A stretch of 33,564 nucleotides of DNA from a bacterium (lineage in GTDB: Bacteria > B130-G9). The stretch is taken from the NCBI GenBank assembly GCA_035527515.1, contig DATLAJ010000066.1, forward strand, positions 1 to 33,564. Reading direction: 5' to 3'. Position 1 is the stretch's first letter. Every line of letters starts with the position of its first letter. The notes under the pieces are model-generated. The model was given only the letters and a program-made list of their open reading frames with translations, was not told the origin of the DNA and searched no databases. Both the position numbers and the translations under genes were made by a program. Positions 12,687-32,367 of this stretch are shown here, one piece after another.

Positions 12687-14822
12687 TCAGGGCAGCGTGA
12701 CGCAGCGGTCAATCTCGTGCATCCCCAGGATCAGTCGCAGTTGGGTTGAGCTTGGAGGAGATGGCCGCGGGAGCGTTGCAATGGCCGTCGACTTAGCGTG
12801 AATTAGACCTGCGGTCTGAACAAAGGTTGCCCTCCGAATCGGCAGGCTGGCGCCGTCGGCAAGAACCTTTATGTTGACCTGCCCCAGGTTCTGCGCCAGC
12901 AGCCAGGGCCGCTGCTGATTCAGACGAACGGTCGCCACGGCGCCTTGCATCCGAGCTGACAGCTGAAGCGTAGTGGGACGACCGTTTTCTGTAAACTCCA
13001 GCTGAACCGTTGCCTGGGATGATGCTCTCTCGAGCTCGAGATCGAGCTTGTCAATTAGCATCGAATCGATCTCGGGCTTGAGTCGCAGTTCGCTCGCACC
13101 CGGACTTTCAGCGACAGCCCGGGCGTGTATCACGTCGGAGGACAGTCGGTCGTAGGACCTCTGCCGCTTGAGAACGCGGTCAGCCAGAATAGGGTCTGGC
13201 ACAGCCCTTTGACCGTCGAATCGAAGTGCTACGACTGTCTTGTCTGGCCCGATCGCTTGGTGTTGAAAGCTCCTCATCCAGTCCTCAAAAGCAAGTGCCT
13301 GCACGCTCTTGCCATACTCGGCTCGGACGGGAATATTGATCTGCATCGCTGGAGAGAAGGGGTCGTCAATCGACATGCTATCCGGCAAAACGATTAGCAT
13401 CAACACATTGTCCGGAATGGTTGGCTGCGCCGCGATGACTGCCTTTGGGATGCGCTTTACGTTCTCAGATTCGGTCAGAAACATTCCGAACATCTTCAAG
13501 AAGCCAGCGATATAGAAGGCGATGATCAGCGCGAACACCGCGGCAGATAGAAACCTAAGCGGGACCATAGATAGTCTAGGAACTAAGCTCTTTGTTATCG
13601 CACATATTGCTCCTATTGCGACCACGGCAACTGCCGCAGCGTAGAACCTAAAATGGTATTTCAAGTTCTCCCCGAAGAAGAGCTCTGCCCAGCCCATGTT
13701 CAGAAGCTCAAAGACCCAATAGCCAATCGCAATCACTGTCAACCATTCCAGCAGGCCAGCTAGTGGCCGCCGCCTCTTAGGCTCGAGGATACCGCCTAGA
13801 GACAAGGAGAGATGACCAAGCAGGCCGGCCATCCCAAATGAGGCAAAGTAAACACGTCCAGGCTGAACGTAAGGCTGAGCGTAGTTGAGGGCGGGTGTGA
13901 TTGCTACCCACAGCAGTAGAAACAAGACGAATCGCCAATTTGCCTTGCAGGTCAAACAAAGCAGCAAGATGGCCGCGAAGCAAAGCGCAGGCGACAGTTG
14001 TAGTGGCCGGATGATCTCATAGATAATTGGTATCACTTTCTTTGCTGCCATCGCCGCAGTCAAGCCCTTGGCGGCGGTTAGGTATGTCCCCGCCGCCGCA
14101 CCCACCGTCATAAACTGATAAAACCTCAACCCCAAATACGTGGCAGAAATTATCCAAAGTGGTAGATGCGCTCTGATGAGGCGTCTCTTGAGCGCACCGT
14201 CCTCCCCGCCAATCCCCCACAGCAGCTCGTAGGCAATCAGGATGGGGATGACCAGGATGGTGTCTGGATAAGTCAGCAGCCCGGCTATATATGCGACAGA
14301 TGCAAAGAGGCTCTTGAGCCAGGACGCCTTTTTGCGGAAACTTGGTCCGGCAAGCCAAATAGCCAACATTGAGAAGAAGACCGAATACAGAGTCTGTGCC
14401 GCCATCTGAAAGACCGGCCCAACGTGGCTTGGCATAATGGTGAAGAGCACTGCGCCAACGGCGCCAGTAAGGAAGCTCTGGGACAAGGCTTCGAGGATCA
14501 GGAATGCTAGAACGCAGGTGGCAGCGTACATCGCAAACCTTATCGCCCGAGGTATCAAGGGATTGGTTCCGAACAATCGATACTGGCCGACTAACAATGC
14601 CTGCAGCATGGGCCTGTAGAACCCGTCTATTTGTGGCTTGATAATAGCACCAAGCATTGAAACGCCCCAGTCTTGTGGCGTTATCCTGTTCAGAGATTCG
14701 CCTATGTAGTAAGCGCCGACCCCAGGGCCGGTTAGCAGCAGCGCGAGCAGAACCAATGCAACAATGAACCAGCGCCTCAGTTTGAGATTCTGGGACAGTC
14801 TGTTATCTGGAAAGAGCTGCAT
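12687..14822 (-). CDS. Large polytopic membrane protein, GT-C glycosyltransferase-like, unassigned
   Basis: This 711-residue protein has about a dozen hydrophobic segments between residues 18 and about 450, then a soluble C-terminal domain of about 250 residues rich in beta-strand-like sequence. An early periplasmic loop has 'DGFYRPMLQALL', resembling loops in polytopic lipid-linked sugar transferases, where an acidic residue acts in catalysis. Later segments include 'TPALNYAQPYVQPGRVYF'. This organisation (GT-C-like membrane half, extracytoplasmic soluble half) suggests transfer of a lipid-linked sugar onto an exported acceptor, but no definite family signature is visible. The ATG is preceded by GGAGGGCGG. 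It is co-directional with the SAM hydroxide adenosyltransferase gene, 88 nt upstream. Confidence 0.75.
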   Translation of the reverse strand: MQLFPDNRLSQNLKLRRWFIVALVLLALLLTGPGVGAYYIGESLNRITPQDWGVSMLGAIIKPQIDGFYRPMLQALLVGQYRLFGTNPLIPRAIRFAMYAATCVLAFLILEALSQSFLTGAVGAVLFTIMPSHVGPVFQMAAQTLYSVFFSMLAIWLAGPSFRKKASWLKSLFASVAYIAGLLTYPDTILVIPILIAYELLWGIGGEDGALKRRLIRAHLPLWIISATYLGLRFYQFMTVGAAAGTYLTAAKGLTAAMAAKKVIPIIYEIIRPLQLSPALCFAAILLLCLTCKANWRFVLFLLLWVAITPALNYAQPYVQPGRVYFASFGMAGLLGHLSLSLGGILEPKRRRPLAGLLEWLTVIAIGYWVFELLNMGWAELFFGENLKYHFRFYAAAVAVVAIGAICAITKSLVPRLSMVPLRFLSAAVFALIIAFYIAGFLKMFGMFLTESENVKRIPKAVIAAQPTIPDNVLMLIVLPDSMSIDDPFSPAMQINIPVRAEYGKSVQALAFEDWMRSFQHQAIGPDKTVVALRFDGQRAVPDPILADRVLKRQRSYDRLSSDVIHARAVAESPGASELRLKPEIDSMLIDKLDLELERASSQATVQLEFTENGRPTTLQLSARMQGAVATVRLNQQRPWLLAQNLGQVNIKVLADGASLPIRRATFVQTAGLIHAKSTAIATLPRPSPPSSTQLRLILGMHEIDRCVTLP

Positions 14823-27202: not shown

Positions 27203-27331
27203 TGTCTGGGCACCCAGCCGAGAGCCTCGGCTCCCATATCTTCTTCTACCAGCGAATGAAAGCTGTCGGCTCGCACGTTCCGAGCTCGCCTCAGGCAGCT
27301 ATCCAGAGTGGGGGTCGATGCTGAAGCGCAG

Positions 27332-27384
27332 CCTCGGCCCAGAGTAAGGGAGCGGGGTTACCGCCCTCGGCCCAGAGTGAGGGA
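27332..27384. repeat. Short direct repeat in the convergent intergenic region
   Basis: 'cctcggcccagagtaaggga' at 27332-27351 recurs as 'cctcggcccagagtgaggga' at 27365-27384 (19 of 20 identical), separated by 13 nt and ending next to the stop of the 755-residue gene. Confidence 0.7.
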
Positions 27385-27391
27385 GGGGAGG

Positions 27392-29659
27392 CTAGATAAC
27401 TCGGACGACAGTGGTGCAGCCGCTGACTATCCTGCCATGGAGGTTCTGCGCGATGCGAACGTAATAGACCGAGCCCGGCTTGGCCTTCTTGGGGACGCGA
27501 ATCTTGACGTCGAACGTATTCGTGCGCTTGCCGCCCATCAGCTTGTAGGGAAGCACCACGCCGCCCATTCGCTTCTCAAGGCCTTTGTTGTCATCCGGCA
27601 GAAACAGGATGCCCTTCTCCTTGTATTCATTGATGGTGGTCAAGGCCTCGCTATCGCCGCACGTCCTCAGGAAGACCTGAAGAGGCGCAGGGTCCTCTGT
27701 CTGGCCCTGCCGGGCCGTCTCGAAGGGATGGCTCACAACGGCCTCCAGCGCCCCCTCGATGCTTTCTAGGTCGTGAGGCGTTCCCAAGAGGCGATGCAGT
27801 GTAATCGCCTGAGCAGGTTCGAGGCTAATGGCCGAGATGTTTCTCATCGCTATGTTGTTGTCCCAAGCTGGCTCCCAGGGATAGACTATCGGGTCTGGGT
27901 TGCACCTGTTCTTCGGGTCGTCGCCTGGCGGAAACCCTCGGTGATTCTCGCACTTGCAGATAGCGTAAACAACCGCGAGAAAGCACACATGAGAGCCCGA
28001 GACGGTCTGGCCGGTGCTCGGGTCGATGAGCTGTGGCGGCGTCCAGTCCGCAAAAGGCGCATTGACCTCGGCGTTGCCGTCACAGCCAGCTCTTCTCGGC
28101 ACAGTAAACGGCCCGAAGTGAGGCGCCCCGCCGCCGCCCTCGGCGGCAGGCGGCCGTATGATCTGCCAGTCGTCCATCTGCGGGGTTCCAGAATACGCCC
28201 AGTAATACCTAATATAGGCGTTCCCAAACCAGTGTTTGCGCTCCGCACCTGGGGGCCATTTCCAGGTCCAGGGATAACCGCCCTGGGCAGGCTCACCGTC
28301 GAGGTCCCGATCGCCTCTGTTCCGCACCTGTGCCCAGATCCTGTATTTAAGGCCGAACTTTATCTCGTCTCCCACATCGACAGCCCGTTCATACCACTGC
28401 TCCTTACTCACGTCAGGGAACGGCCCCTCTACGATCTTGATGTCCGGGCTCTCCCAGAAAGTCTCCTGGGAATACGGCGCGCCATCGTCATCCGGGTGCG
28501 TCTTGATCCACAGGTCGATGATATTGCCCCTGAGGCAATGATTACGCTTCCACCGCCAGATCTTCACAGGGAAATCCTGCGGTTGCCATTTATTCTGATA
28601 AAACAAAGCCTGGTCATAAGGGCTGTGAATCGCCTCTTGGTAAACCTCGTTCAGTTTGCTTCTGACGTGCAGCACTCGTGTCTCATATTGCACTGTGACG
28701 TGGCCAGACGGCCCGGCCGGGGTATTCCAAGCGTGTTCAACTACGTATCGGGCTTTCACGTTCACGGGGGCCACCTTCCACACGACCGCCCAGTGATGTC
28801 CGACAGCATACTCGACGATGTCGCCGACGCGCACGTCATCGTCAGAGAGTACCTGCTCGAGATCCTTGGTGAGGATATGCAATTCCCCGGGCGACCAGGC
28901 ACGTCTGGGCAACCATATTAGTCCGGCGCAGAAATATCTTCCCGTCGGCCCGAGCAACTCCCATGATCTGTCAAAGTGAAAGTACTTACAGGTTTCGCCC
29001 AAGAAGGGCGCGTACACGGGCGGTTCGCCCTCGAGCACCACCCGATCGGCGCCCTCGAACGGAGCTTCCCGGGGCGGGGGCCATCGCACCGTGCACCAGT
29101 TATCCTCGGTACGGCCACCTTCCTCCGCGGGGACAGCCCATCCGAAGTGAGTATCGCCCGTGTCCTCACCATCCCAATTAGTGATTCCCGGAATGGGCCA
29201 CAGCTCTGGAGAAACAGTCCCGCGCTGATAACGGTCAATTGACAAAATAGAAGCTAGAATCGCGGTCGCGTGCGATTCGCCGGATTGCGACCCTGTCATT
29301 CTGCCCGCGAGAAGCAACTCTCTCGAGATCCACTGTGGCGCGAGGCTTTTTAAGAGAGCTGCGGAGTGGTCTGTTGGGCTAGCGAGCGGGGCCATGACAA
29401 GATGCGCCGCCGTATCGGGCGCCGTCTGACACAATATCCAGAACAGACAAGCCTGGGCCAATCGCGGCGTAGCGGCTCCGTTTTTCCGGAGCTCCCAGCA
29501 GATGAGAGGCGCCGCATGACGCCCAGCCTTGAGGAGCCGCTGGACAAGCGGGTCATTCCGAAACGACATCACAAGATCTGACATGAGTCTTGCGCGCTGG
29601 GCCGATGGAATCGCGTTCGGCTGCATGAGCTTCTTGATAATGTAGAGGTAAGTAGCCAT
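27392..29659 (-). CDS. Unknown 755-residue protein linked to a beta-helix gene
   Basis: No family is recognised. The first 130 residues are mainly helical with a HEAT-like feel ('MSDLVMSFRNDPLVQRLLKAG', 'LICWELRKNGAATP'). From about 150 to 690 the sequence is rich in Trp, Pro, Tyr and Asp ('FGWAVPAEEGG', 'WPPPREAPFEGAD', 'GYPWTWKWPPGAERKHWFG'), suggesting beta-sandwich domains. The C terminus, 'FDVKIRVPKKAKPGSVYYVR', looks like a short Ig-like strand pattern often found in exported proteins. There is no signal peptide or membrane segment, so it may stay cytoplasmic or leave by an unusual route. It starts 21 nt after the beta-helix gene and is presumably co-transcribed with it; the ribosome binding site is weak. 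Two cysteine-rich spots ('CKCENHRGFPPGDDPKNRC' and 'VSGC') could bind metal. Confidence 0.8.
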   Translation of the reverse strand: MATYLYIIKKLMQPNAIPSAQRARLMSDLVMSFRNDPLVQRLLKAGRHAAPLICWELRKNGAATPRLAQACLFWILCQTAPDTAAHLVMAPLASPTDHSAALLKSLAPQWISRELLLAGRMTGSQSGESHATAILASILSIDRYQRGTVSPELWPIPGITNWDGEDTGDTHFGWAVPAEEGGRTEDNWCTVRWPPPREAPFEGADRVVLEGEPPVYAPFLGETCKYFHFDRSWELLGPTGRYFCAGLIWLPRRAWSPGELHILTKDLEQVLSDDDVRVGDIVEYAVGHHWAVVWKVAPVNVKARYVVEHAWNTPAGPSGHVTVQYETRVLHVRSKLNEVYQEAIHSPYDQALFYQNKWQPQDFPVKIWRWKRNHCLRGNIIDLWIKTHPDDDGAPYSQETFWESPDIKIVEGPFPDVSKEQWYERAVDVGDEIKFGLKYRIWAQVRNRGDRDLDGEPAQGGYPWTWKWPPGAERKHWFGNAYIRYYWAYSGTPQMDDWQIIRPPAAEGGGGAPHFGPFTVPRRAGCDGNAEVNAPFADWTPPQLIDPSTGQTVSGSHVCFLAVVYAICKCENHRGFPPGDDPKNRCNPDPIVYPWEPAWDNNIAMRNISAISLEPAQAITLHRLLGTPHDLESIEGALEAVVSHPFETARQGQTEDPAPLQVFLRTCGDSEALTTINEYKEKGILFLPDDNKGLEKRMGGVVLPYKLMGGKRTNTFDVKIRVPKKAKPGSVYYVRIAQNLHGRIVSGCTTVVRVI

Positions 29660-29680
29660 TTCAAGTACTCGTCCTACAAT

Positions 29681-31525
29681 TCAAGGCAGTTGGTTTGCTT
29701 TCGTCCACGATTCGAAGGGAATGGGATAATGGTATCCCAAATCGACGGTCCAAAAGTCCGGCGTGCTGCGAGCTTGCGTGGTCATATATAAAAGCCCCGC
29801 ATCGTCCGGGGAGCAGCTACCAGCGTCAACGCATGGGCTATTGGGGTCCAGATAATAGTGACCATAGGGCCCGTCCACAAACAGCGGGTCGGCGTGGATG
29901 TTGCCCTCGCCCTCGTCGGGGTCCTGGACACAGCAATATCTGGCCGTGCAGTTGTAGAGGTCATCCCCGTTGTTCCAGATGATGGAGTCCGTGATCTCGG
30001 AGGGCCCGTAGCTCCAGACTCCCCCACCGAGCCCCCCCGCAACGTTGTCCGCGATGGTGTTATTCTGAAACTCCGTAGGTGGATAATCACAGACCACACC
30101 GCCGCCGTCCAGCCCGGCGCTGTTCAGCGCGATTAAGTTGTTCGATATGATCTCTGCGTATTCACTAAGGATCCCGCCGCCATTGTGTTGGGATGAATTC
30201 TCTATAACGTAGTTACTGAATATGATGATGCTGGTCGCGGCCGTGTATAACCCGCCACCGCTGAGATCTGCGCTGTTGTGCTCAATCGTGTTACTCTGGA
30301 CAGAGGCGTAACTGCACCAGCAGAATACACCGCCTCCGTGAGATCCAGCCGAGTTATCGGCGATCAAGTTGCCAAACACCAGGATCGTATGCCGGTAGTT
30401 GTATATTCCCCCTCCCTCGTCGGCTGAATTACCTCGTATCGTGTTGCACAATACTCCCACCCAGCTTGAGTACGAGCAGCATACCGCGCCACCCCGGCCG
30501 TCGCAGGAGTTACCCTCAATGGCGTTGTTCTGGATGGTCAGAGGGCATTCGGAGTATATCCCGCCTCCGGAATTAGTCGCGTGATTGCCTGATATTACGT
30601 TGTCTCTGACCATAGGCCAACCGCCGCCGCAGAATATCCCACCGCCATTTTGTGCCGAGTTGCCAGTAATAGTGTTGTTCGCGACCGTACAAGAAGCCGG
30701 GCACCACCGATTCTGGGTCTCGCAGTATATCCCTCCACCATCCTTGCTTTTGCCGCCTGTTATCATGAATCCCTCTATCGTCCAGTCATCGACGTAGTAA
30801 CCCCAGATTACGTTGGCCGCGGACTCAGCGTCCAGAACCGTGACGTCTGCGCCGTCGCCGACAAGCGAGACCCAGCTCTTCATGTTAAGCGGGAACGTCT
30901 CGCCGTTGGTGGAGGTAGAATACACGCCGGCCGCGACGTGGATGGTTGCTGGCGCGGCGGGCGAGGCCACGACCGAGTTCAAGGCGTGCGTAATCGTCTT
31001 CCAGGGCAGGTCCTCAGAGCCATCATACCACTCGTAATCCTCTCCTAGTGCGGCGTCAACGTAGTAATCCACGCCCGTAACGGAGAAGACCGTAAATGTC
31101 CCAAAACTGGCCTCACAGACCCAGTTGAATGTGCCCGGTTCGGTCAGGACCGCGGCGAAGGAATACTCGCCAGGGTCTGCGATTGGCGGCATTCCGGAGG
31201 GCAGATCGAACGAGAAAAAGCGCTTTTGGTTCATGGTGAACCCCGCCGGCACGTAGATGCCCTCAATCCACGGGTTGATCGCCTCGGACCAGTACCAGCC
31301 GCATGTCCAGAGCGAGCCGTTGGGCGTCAGCAGACCGATATAAACGTCAACGGACATCCCCTCGCCCTGATTATCCCCCGCCAGGCTCACCTCAATCGTG
31401 TCGCCCGCCTTGTAGCTGTCCCTATCGGTTTCGATGAATACCTGAGGCGCCGCTGTTGACAGAGCCGGCAGGATTGCCAGAAGCATGATGGTAACGATAA
31501 TCAAGCCGAAAACACGTATCTTCAT
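29681..31525 (-). CDS. Secreted right-handed beta-helix protein with DUF1565-like region
   Basis: The protein has 614 residues from the ATG at 31525, which is preceded by GGAGGG at 7 nt; the frame also opens at 31570. A signal peptide, 'MKIRVFGLIIVTIMLLAILP' with cleavage expected after 'ALSTAA', is followed by a beta-sandwich-like domain ('FIETDRDSYKAGDTIEVSLA'). 'VDYYVDAALGEDYEWYDGSE' and 'PWKTITHALNSV' then form a DUF1565-like entry segment. Some twelve coils of the type 'NTITGNSAQNGGGIFCG' follow, ending 'TVDLGYHYPIP'. The coils resemble those of the gene at the left edge, but their DNA is not near-identical. The protein probably lies on the cell surface or is secreted; no catalytic motif is apparent. 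Confidence 0.9.
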   Translation of the reverse strand: MKIRVFGLIIVTIMLLAILPALSTAAPQVFIETDRDSYKAGDTIEVSLAGDNQGEGMSVDVYIGLLTPNGSLWTCGWYWSEAINPWIEGIYVPAGFTMNQKRFFSFDLPSGMPPIADPGEYSFAAVLTEPGTFNWVCEASFGTFTVFSVTGVDYYVDAALGEDYEWYDGSEDLPWKTITHALNSVVASPAAPATIHVAAGVYSTSTNGETFPLNMKSWVSLVGDGADVTVLDAESAANVIWGYYVDDWTIEGFMITGGKSKDGGGIYCETQNRWCPASCTVANNTITGNSAQNGGGIFCGGGWPMVRDNVISGNHATNSGGGIYSECPLTIQNNAIEGNSCDGRGGAVCCSYSSWVGVLCNTIRGNSADEGGGIYNYRHTILVFGNLIADNSAGSHGGGVFCWCSYASVQSNTIEHNSADLSGGGLYTAATSIIIFSNYVIENSSQHNGGGILSEYAEIISNNLIALNSAGLDGGGVVCDYPPTEFQNNTIADNVAGGLGGGVWSYGPSEITDSIIWNNGDDLYNCTARYCCVQDPDEGEGNIHADPLFVDGPYGHYYLDPNSPCVDAGSCSPDDAGLLYMTTQARSTPDFWTVDLGYHYPIPFESWTKANQLP

Positions 31526-31589
31526 GTCGATACCCTCCATAAAAGAGACAAGAGCATAATTCAACCGCATCGGTCTCCTAATCTACTAG

Positions 31590-31716
31590 ATGCTTCGTCC
31601 ACGAAGGGCACTAAGGGCCACGAAGAGAAGAAGCATGTTCAAGAACGCGCCTCGACCATCAATCCCTCCTCTTGCGTTTCCTCCTGCTTCGTGTGTCTTC
31701 GTGTTCTTCGTGGATC
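31590..31716. repeat. Inverted pair of 'ccacgaagg'-type intergenic repeats
   Basis: 'tccacgaagggcactaaggg' (31599-31618) continues as 'ccacgaagag', and the reverse-complement type 'cttcgtgtgtcttcgtgttc' (31687-31706) continues as 'ttcgtggatc'. The left copy is framed by ATGCTTC (31590-31596) and GAAGCAT (31630-31636). Similar cacgaag-rich intergenic elements are common in some uncultivated lineages. The right copy supplies the out-of-frame 3' tail of the neighbouring gene. Confidence 0.65.
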
Positions 31717-32238
31717 ATTCCTACGATCAACCGCCAACCGCCAACGGATAACTATGAATACGGGCCGTCGGCAATGTCGGCATCCTCGACCACCCCGACG
31801 ATCCGAGGGGCGGCCGCCTGTCTGGACCCACTCGCCAGTCGTGTTGTCCAGATAAAACAGACGCTCCAGATAGAGCTTCTTGATGTGCTCGAGGCGCGCC
31901 TCTTTCACAGCATCGTCGGTGAAGCCGACCACACCTGAGCGGCCTTCCTTGTCGCCAAAGGTGGCGCCCATCCGGCCGCCGCGAAGGGCTGTCGTATAGA
32001 CCGTGAGCGTGACTCCGGCGTCCATCGCGATGATGCTGCCGCAGAGGTCGAAGAAGGTGTCGGCGTCCGTCGAGCCGATGACGAGGTCCTTGCTGACGGC
32101 GTATTCGCGGTTGCCGTAGCCGCCAGGCGTCACGTATTGGCCGACGGTGCCGTCCGCATCGAGGTCGGCCATCGTGTATGGGTCGTCCTGACTGCCTCCA
32201 GTTACAAAGATGGTGTCGTTCAGGAACTCAATGCCCAT
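31639..32238 (-). CDS. Unknown protein with probable frameshift near the 3' end
   Basis: GGAGG at 32246-32250, 7 nt before the ATG, is an excellent ribosome binding site. The first 140 residues look like real protein ('MGIEFLNDTIFVTGGSQDDP', 'AVSKDLVIGSTDADTFFDLCG', 'VTLTVYTTALRGGRMG', 'AVKEARLEHIKKLYLERLFY'). From about residue 141 the frame turns Arg-rich ('RRGGRGCRHCRRP') and runs through an intergenic repeat. In the frame reached by skipping one base at about 31811-31830 the sequence reads 'APRIVGVVEDADIADGPYS' and stops at 31752-31754, a far more natural end. The intact gene was therefore probably 31752-32238. No family is recognised and there is no signal peptide. It lies upstream of the beta-helix gene on the same strand. 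Confidence 0.65.
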   Translation of the reverse strand: MGIEFLNDTIFVTGGSQDDPYTMADLDADGTVGQYVTPGGYGNREYAVSKDLVIGSTDADTFFDLCGSIIAMDAGVTLTVYTTALRGGRMGATFGDKEGRSGVVGFTDDAVKEARLEHIKKLYLERLFYLDNTTGEWVQTGGRPSDRRGGRGCRHCRRPVFIVIRWRLAVDRRNDPRRTRRHTKQEETQEEGLMVEARS

Positions 32239-32322
32239 GTCCTTTCCTCCTTTACCATATTACATTATTGAAAAACAACAGAAAAAACCAAATCGCATTT
32301 TAGGCAACCAGAAGGGATTCTA

Positions 32323-32333
32323 CCCCCCCCCCC
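32323..32333. repeat. Homopolymer of 11 C (G11 on the coding strand)
   Basis: An uninterrupted run of 11 C lies 85-95 nt upstream of the start at 32238. On the minus strand it sits just before an AT-rich stretch with promoter-like elements (TTGGTT at 32286-32291, 18-nt spacer, TAATGT at 32262-32267). Confidence 0.85.
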
Positions 32334-32367
32334 GCCGCCTGTCAAGCTTTTCTTGCCGTCATGAGAA

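Follow-up and report, generated by a model that had tools for sequence, protein, structure and literature searches.

The subject of this analysis is P0001, a 755-residue protein encoded on contig DATLAJ010000066.1 (C66) of the bacterial draft genome GCA_035527515.1 (lineage B130-G9); the whole contig, 33,564 nucleotides in length, is referred to as the window, and the draft genome (G000; 3.47 Mb, 95.6% complete) as the own genome. Judged from its sequence, P0001 has a new domain architecture and belongs to a mosaic locus specific to its lineage, and we infer that it is a four-part putative cysteine hydrolase, a reading in which our confidence is about even. The protein would be a peptidase or amidase with an NlpC/P60-like papain fold, made up of a helical module at the N-terminus, a hydrolase domain and, towards the C-terminus, a pair of beta domains; the first of the pair is of the kind that follows the catalytic domain in subtilases. 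Its gene would be transcribed together with a leader gene and a gene for a beta-helix protein, on a single transcript driven by a strong sigma-70-type promoter. The gene and its parts are:

27,392–29,659, minus strand: P0001, the protein under study; ATG open reading frame (ORF) of 755 codons, 755 amino acids (aa), with a full-length paralogue on contig C86
29,225–29,659, minus strand: helical N-terminal domain, residues 1–145 (low-confidence AF2 model, own-genome search, comparison with C86)
28,520–29,047, minus strand: putative NlpC/P60-like cysteine hydrolase domain, residues 205–380 (motif positions, profile tests)
27,830–28,516, minus strand: CARDB-like "WESPDI" beta-sandwich domain, residues 382–610 (tblastn, Pfam annotation of the matches, shuffles)
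27,395–27,826, minus strand: C-terminal beta domain, residues 612–755 (common to C86; 30-aa remnant on contig C121)

P0001 and its paralogues

The original prediction had described P0001 as an unrecognised protein without an export signal, directly behind the gene of an exported beta-helix protein, and each of these observations was borne out. The ORF is intact over all 755 codons and starts 21 bp after the stop of the beta-helix gene on the same strand, with a AGGACGAG-like ribosome site in the gap. No family was found for the protein in Pfam, NCBIfam, PHROGs, PADLOC or the PDB sequences; the lack of a PADLOC match bears on membership of a defence family, and neither P0001 nor its C86 paralogue has a Pfam match to the Peptidase_S8 catalytic domain. 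By hydropathy P0001 has no signal peptide, the highest 15-residue mean within the first 60 residues being 0.55, as against 3.13 for the beta-helix protein by the same measure. A clear match to a cytoplasmic enzyme family, which had been named as evidence against the original prediction, was not found; the sole domain match that is firm concerns an accessory domain of subtilases.

A search of the own genome with P0001 returned six other stretches at E≤1 on four contigs, and P0001-related sequence is present at five loci, namely the window and contigs C86, C120, C47 and C121. The C86 protein is a full-length paralogue of 634 residues (31% over 744 columns by BLAST, 37% identity by MAFFT). The C120 copy corresponds to residues 1–113 of P0001 and is 71% identical, the C47 copy is a short N-terminal remnant (residues 1–45, 67% identical), and C121 retains the last 30 residues. 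Differences from the C120 copy (113 codons) occur at frequencies of 0.195, 0.150 and 0.398 at the three codon positions, and those from the C86 paralogue (620 codons) at 0.502, 0.403 and 0.644; this third-position excess supports the coding status of P0001. The own genome was the only one with a match when 60 genomes were searched with P0001 alone and when 386 genomes were searched with a two-protein profile of P0001 and C86, and a same-genus genome and two same-family genomes contain no relative. None of the 11 stretches found in viral contigs with the P0001 query, or of the 29 found in genome contigs with the two-protein alignment, was confirmed, and phages and plasmids gave no match to P0001. 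The protein is unrecognised yet not an orphan.

Domain architecture

The domain spanning residues 382–610 provides the firm link to known proteins. A tblastn search of all plasmids with C86 matched S8 peptidases of Sinorhizobium (E 8e-4) and Agarilytica (E 8e-3), and a pattern scan for the WESPDI domain gave 32 loci, four of which are supported by tblastn of C86 (L019, L023 and L029 firmly, L022 at E 0.011), with E values in this set down to 7e-10; two of the four are subtilases by Pfam. Aligned with the Minicystis and Streptomyces domains, the P0001 domain scores at Z 6.3–6.6 and that of C86 at Z 17.8–18.6, and none of 1000 shuffles scored as well. These comparisons establish that residues 382–610 are homologous to the CARDB-like domain of S8 subtilases; CARDB in subtilases is treated in PMC2605481. 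The domain lies after the subtilase domain in the Sinorhizobium, Agarilytica, Minicystis and Streptomyces proteins, and it occurs in addition in a secreted Saprospiraceae protein with a sorting tail. P0001 is like the S8 subtilases of Minicystis, Streptomyces and Sinorhizobium in having the WESPDI/VRNRG/NNIAMRN domain, which in those proteins is directly behind the catalytic domain, but unlike them it has no subtilase domain and a different putative catalytic domain occupies that place. The Streptomyces cyaneus subtilase with a CARDB-like domain (L023, 2604–5747) has no obvious signal peptide; its neighbours are a PKD-like protein on one side and, on the other, a putative metallopeptidase containing HEMGHTYGLGH, both named by eye.

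The C-terminal 144 residues are strongly shared by P0001 and C86; their similarity to the C-terminus of the Streptomyces subtilase is weak (Z 2.1; the score of P0001 is equalled by 47 of 1000 shuffles and that of C86 by 21 of 1000). At the other end of the protein, the N-terminal module is common to P0001 and C86 (Z 10.5 in the shuffle test). The helical N terminus noted in the original prediction appears in the AF2 model as nine helices up to residue 145, in a model that is of low confidence as a whole (mean pLDDT 44.5, about 62–67 for residues 1–40) and is the sole basis for this feature.

The middle domain, which aligns between P0001 and C86 at Z 18.1, is the part on which the putative chemistry, action on a peptide or amide bond, would depend. 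Cys, Gly-Asp and His occur in both proteins in the order of NlpC/P60 domains and with similar spacing (C244, G279-D280, H288/H289, S334-K335 and H345 in P0001; C193, G230-D231 and H246 in C86). A profile of the two sequences scored above 1.0 bit with 12 of 30 true NlpC/P60 domains; among control windows drawn from other ORFs, 13 of 166 passed this cut. The best NlpC/P60 alignment of the profile places Cys on Cys and brings the Gly-Asp and His regions together. Against an NlpC/P60 profile, only 8 of 2000 shuffles of P0001 scored as well.

Several results weigh against this assignment. The profile used in the hhalign, shuffle and control tests was a hand alignment made to join the His motifs; C86 scored within chance against the NlpC/P60 profile (152 of 2000 shuffles as good); hmmscan of P0001 and C86 gave no match at the PF00877 cut-off; and hhalign of 30 NlpC/P60 domains with the two middle domains returned a probability of only 2.4%. 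The catalytic His and the second His are further apart than in the NlpC/P60 domains compared. The structure prediction and fold search proposed by the original prediction were carried out, but the AF2 model of the middle domain alone was, like that of the whole protein, of low confidence (pLDDT 36.8), and Foldseek found nothing at E≤0.001 with either model. A further point concerns a Flavonifractor plasmid protein that was retrieved with a motif query (E 1e-7): the two-sequence profile fails to recover its domain (368 of 2000 shuffles reach its score), and its pairwise Z values are only 1.7–1.8.

Against the NlpC/P60 profile, the same Flavonifractor protein reaches a score that none of 2000 shuffles equals. 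It has the columns Y-x-C, D-x-x-x-Y, S-K and H in common with P0001 and C86, and it resembles DUF7689 (PF24738) at E 0.025, below the family cut-off; DUF7689 may be a papain-like family. It is annotated as a hypothetical protein of Flavonifractor plautii (L137, 1754–2800) and has an apparent signal peptide ahead of its DUF7689-like domain. Among 460,014 aa of ORFs, a loose motif pattern, written with these sequences in view, matched P0001, C86, the Flavonifractor protein, one true NlpC/P60 domain and a single frame unrelated to them (15 rows, redundant loci included); it also matched 1598 of 200,000 shuffles of P0001. P0001 is like NlpC/P60 (PF00877) in the order and spacing of Cys, Gly-Asp and His and unlike it in lacking a significant profile match, in the longer stretch before the second His and in the surroundings of the domain, a helical module on one side and CARDB-like domains on the other. 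On the sequence comparisons, the resemblance is weak but above controls, and P0001 is not classed as a member of NlpC/P60. We consider a papain-like fold for this domain somewhat probable, and that it is catalytic about an even chance.

Other candidates were rejected as chance. The middle-domain profile had matches at E≤0.5 in 27 of 372 genomes, those in the 26 genomes other than the own genome being fragments with E 0.001–0.5, several with stops; its PDB matches had E values of 1.4 and above, and C86 matched the TNT toxin at E 0.13. With the C86 middle domain, plasmids and phages gave only chance-level matches; with the motif query, two phage matches (E 0.6–0.9) led nowhere and none of 17 stretches in viral contigs was confirmed, nor were the three found there with the Flavonifractor domain. 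In none of the four family genomes (G000–G003) was there a match to NlpC/P60 at E≤1e-5 or to CHAP at E≤1e-4.

The leader gene and the mosaic loci

The remaining elements of the locus are:

29,681–31,570, minus strand: exported right-handed beta-helix protein with an N-terminal Ig-like domain, 629 aa (Pfam, own-genome matches)
31,639–32,238, minus strand: leader ("MGIEF") gene, 199-codon ORF, upstream of the beta-helix gene
32,317–32,345, minus strand: sigma-70-type promoter TTGACA-17-TAGAAT (11 of 12 matches in the scan; alignment)
27,249–27,355, minus strand: 3' non-coding element, 91% identical to the end of the C120 locus and partly a dispersed repeat

By alignment, the promoter is kept upstream of related loci. 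Relatives of the leader are present in all four family genomes: G000 has three copies and a remnant, G001 a single copy, and G002 four copies, of which one contains an in-frame stop, while G003 has a fragment of 24 aa. The single other match to the leader profile among 386 genomes (G297, E 0.002) is part of a large propeller-like protein and was judged to be chance, and none of six stretches found in viral contigs with the leader query was confirmed. Compared with C86 and C120, the window leader carries a single additional base close to its 3' end (about 31,819), which lengthens the ORF as read beyond those of its relatives; the base is either real or an assembly error. Nine leader loci were compared, the tandem pair on G002 C115 being counted once:

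window: leader, beta-helix, P0001
C86: leader, small exported protein (153 aa), P0001-type protein
C121: leader, GNAT, P0001 C-terminal remnant
C120: leader remnant only, beta-helix, chimera, propeller
G001: leader, exported protein at the contig end
G002 C115: leader tandem pair, 878-aa protein, propeller
G002 C236: leader, 1011-aa protein, DUF1565 protein
G002 C235: leader, 402-aa and 275-aa proteins, two further ORFs
G003: leader fragment, 442-aa protein, propeller

The name "propeller" derives from a Pfam match to PQQ_2 in the C120 protein and from homology at the other loci. A beta-helix recognised by Pfam (Beta_helix or DUF1565) is found at three of the nine loci (window, C120 and G002 C236). 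The 878-, 1011- and 402-aa proteins have neither an N-terminal hydrophobic stretch nor a Pfam match, and the 442-aa protein has a sub-threshold match to WbsX (E 0.017).

DNA alignments reveal the mosaic structure of these loci. The window is 89% identical to C120 over 31,309–31,852, which includes the start of the beta-helix gene, and again over 32,267–32,358, and the leader gene between these blocks, some 414 bp of the window, is missing from C120; a further block at 72% covers the end of the beta-helix gene and the start of P0001 (29,320–29,854). Identity to C47 is 72–73% over 29,526–31,567. The 225-aa chimera on C120 joins the P0001 N-terminus to a C-terminal piece otherwise found in the 878-aa and 442-aa proteins, and the C120 propeller gene is related to the genes behind those two proteins (45% and 33%). 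These shared blocks, the chimera and the propeller relatives reflect exchange between paralogous loci, not independent pairing. The operon is one of several such loci: most of them retain leader and promoter, and the large genes that follow have been duplicated, truncated and exchanged.

Repeated pairing with beta-helix genes, which the original prediction proposed as a check, was found at three of the five P0001 loci (window, C120 and C47) and in no independent context: all three are copies of one duplicated stretch, with the P0001 part truncated in two, and C86, the sole other full-length copy, has the 153-aa exported protein in the slot and no beta-helix gene. The link between P0001 and the beta-helix protein is therefore mainly inheritance by duplication.

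The beta-helix protein matches DUF1565 (1.7e-14), Chlam_PMP (1.7e-11) and NosD (6.8e-8) in Pfam, and P0001 itself has no repeats of this surface-protein kind. The beta-helix ORF may alternatively start at 31,525, an internal Met ahead of the hydrophobic stretch. The Ig-like domain (residues about 40–163; YxxGDxxxV...VDVYxGLLxPxG) recurs in very many own-genome proteins, where it is frequently located at the C-terminus or close to it, and a Peptidase_C25 protein of G002 (L057, 701–3997) terminates in it too; this could be a sorting or attachment domain.

Elsewhere in the window, the protein at the left end matches Pfam Beta_helix (5.2e-17), and an ORF of 711 aa (12,687–14,822, minus strand) has no Pfam match at E≤1. 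The genes next upstream of the leader and promoter resemble rimI and tsaB in sequence, and a convergent gene with a Pfam match to LPG_synthase_TM lies downstream of P0001. A dispersed non-coding repeat at 27,213–27,292 recurs at some 20 other places in the genome (24 in all) and has a nearly invariant core of 28 bases.

Alternative explanations and significance

That the middle domain has a papain-like fold without catalysis, P0001 being a structural or binding surface protein, is rather unlikely: compared with C86, P0001 carries extra residues around the His motif, and Asn-Cys-Trp of C86 is Phe-Cys-Ala in P0001, but Cys, Asp, His and the second His can be placed in both proteins and changes are in excess at third positions. 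We think it unlikely that P0001 is the dedicated partner of the beta-helix protein, processing or chaperoning it, for example by trimming before or during export. The spacing of 21 bp on one strand, the association of the beta-helix gene with the P0001 N-terminus at three loci and the putative hydrolase domain fit this role; however, the C86 copy stands without a beta-helix gene, the beta-helix genes on C120 and C47 stay open although the P0001 copies there are without the putative catalytic domain, and 161 own-genome matches to the beta-helix/Ig protein are set against only two full-length P0001-type proteins. Adjacency, on which the original suggestion of a partner or processing factor was based, is by itself no argument, given pairing by duplication and a beta-helix at three of nine leader loci, and the original interpretation was borne out only in part. 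The beta-helix protein is probably an operon neighbour, likely an exported surface protein, rather than a dedicated partner or a demonstrated substrate. A role of P0001 as a co-exported effector is possible.

The leader protein is kept with its promoter in front of varying signal-less proteins (P0001 and, in relatives, those of 878, 1011, 402 and 442 aa) and of exported repeat proteins. It might be the invariant component of a system, specific to this lineage, for carrying or displaying interchangeable enzymes that have no signal of their own, P0001 being one such cargo; we regard this as improbable. It is very improbable that recombination has left a decaying locus in which P0001 no longer functions, since the truncated copies on C120, C47 and C121 and the one-base insertion in the window leader are countered by 755 intact codons, the third-position excess, and an intact promoter and ribosome site. 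Fainter still is the chance of an intracellular conflict or immunity protein combining a helical adaptor domain with a protease-like effector: the absence of a signal peptide and the joining of a helical module to a hydrolase-like domain are compatible with it, but PADLOC gave no match, the window neighbours scanned include no sensor or NTPase of known defence kind, and the CARDB-like domain is seen in subtilases and in a secreted protein with a sorting tail. Under the preferred reading of P0001 as a putative cysteine hydrolase, the protein would work outside the cell or at its surface although it has no signal peptide.

If this reading is true, P0001 would add a putative cysteine hydrolase family that was missed by the profile libraries used here, and a subtilase accessory domain would be attached to a different catalytic domain. 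The conserved leader gene would be a marker of exoprotein loci undergoing exchange in a bacterial family about which little is known, and a handle on how the signal-less proteins of that family are used.

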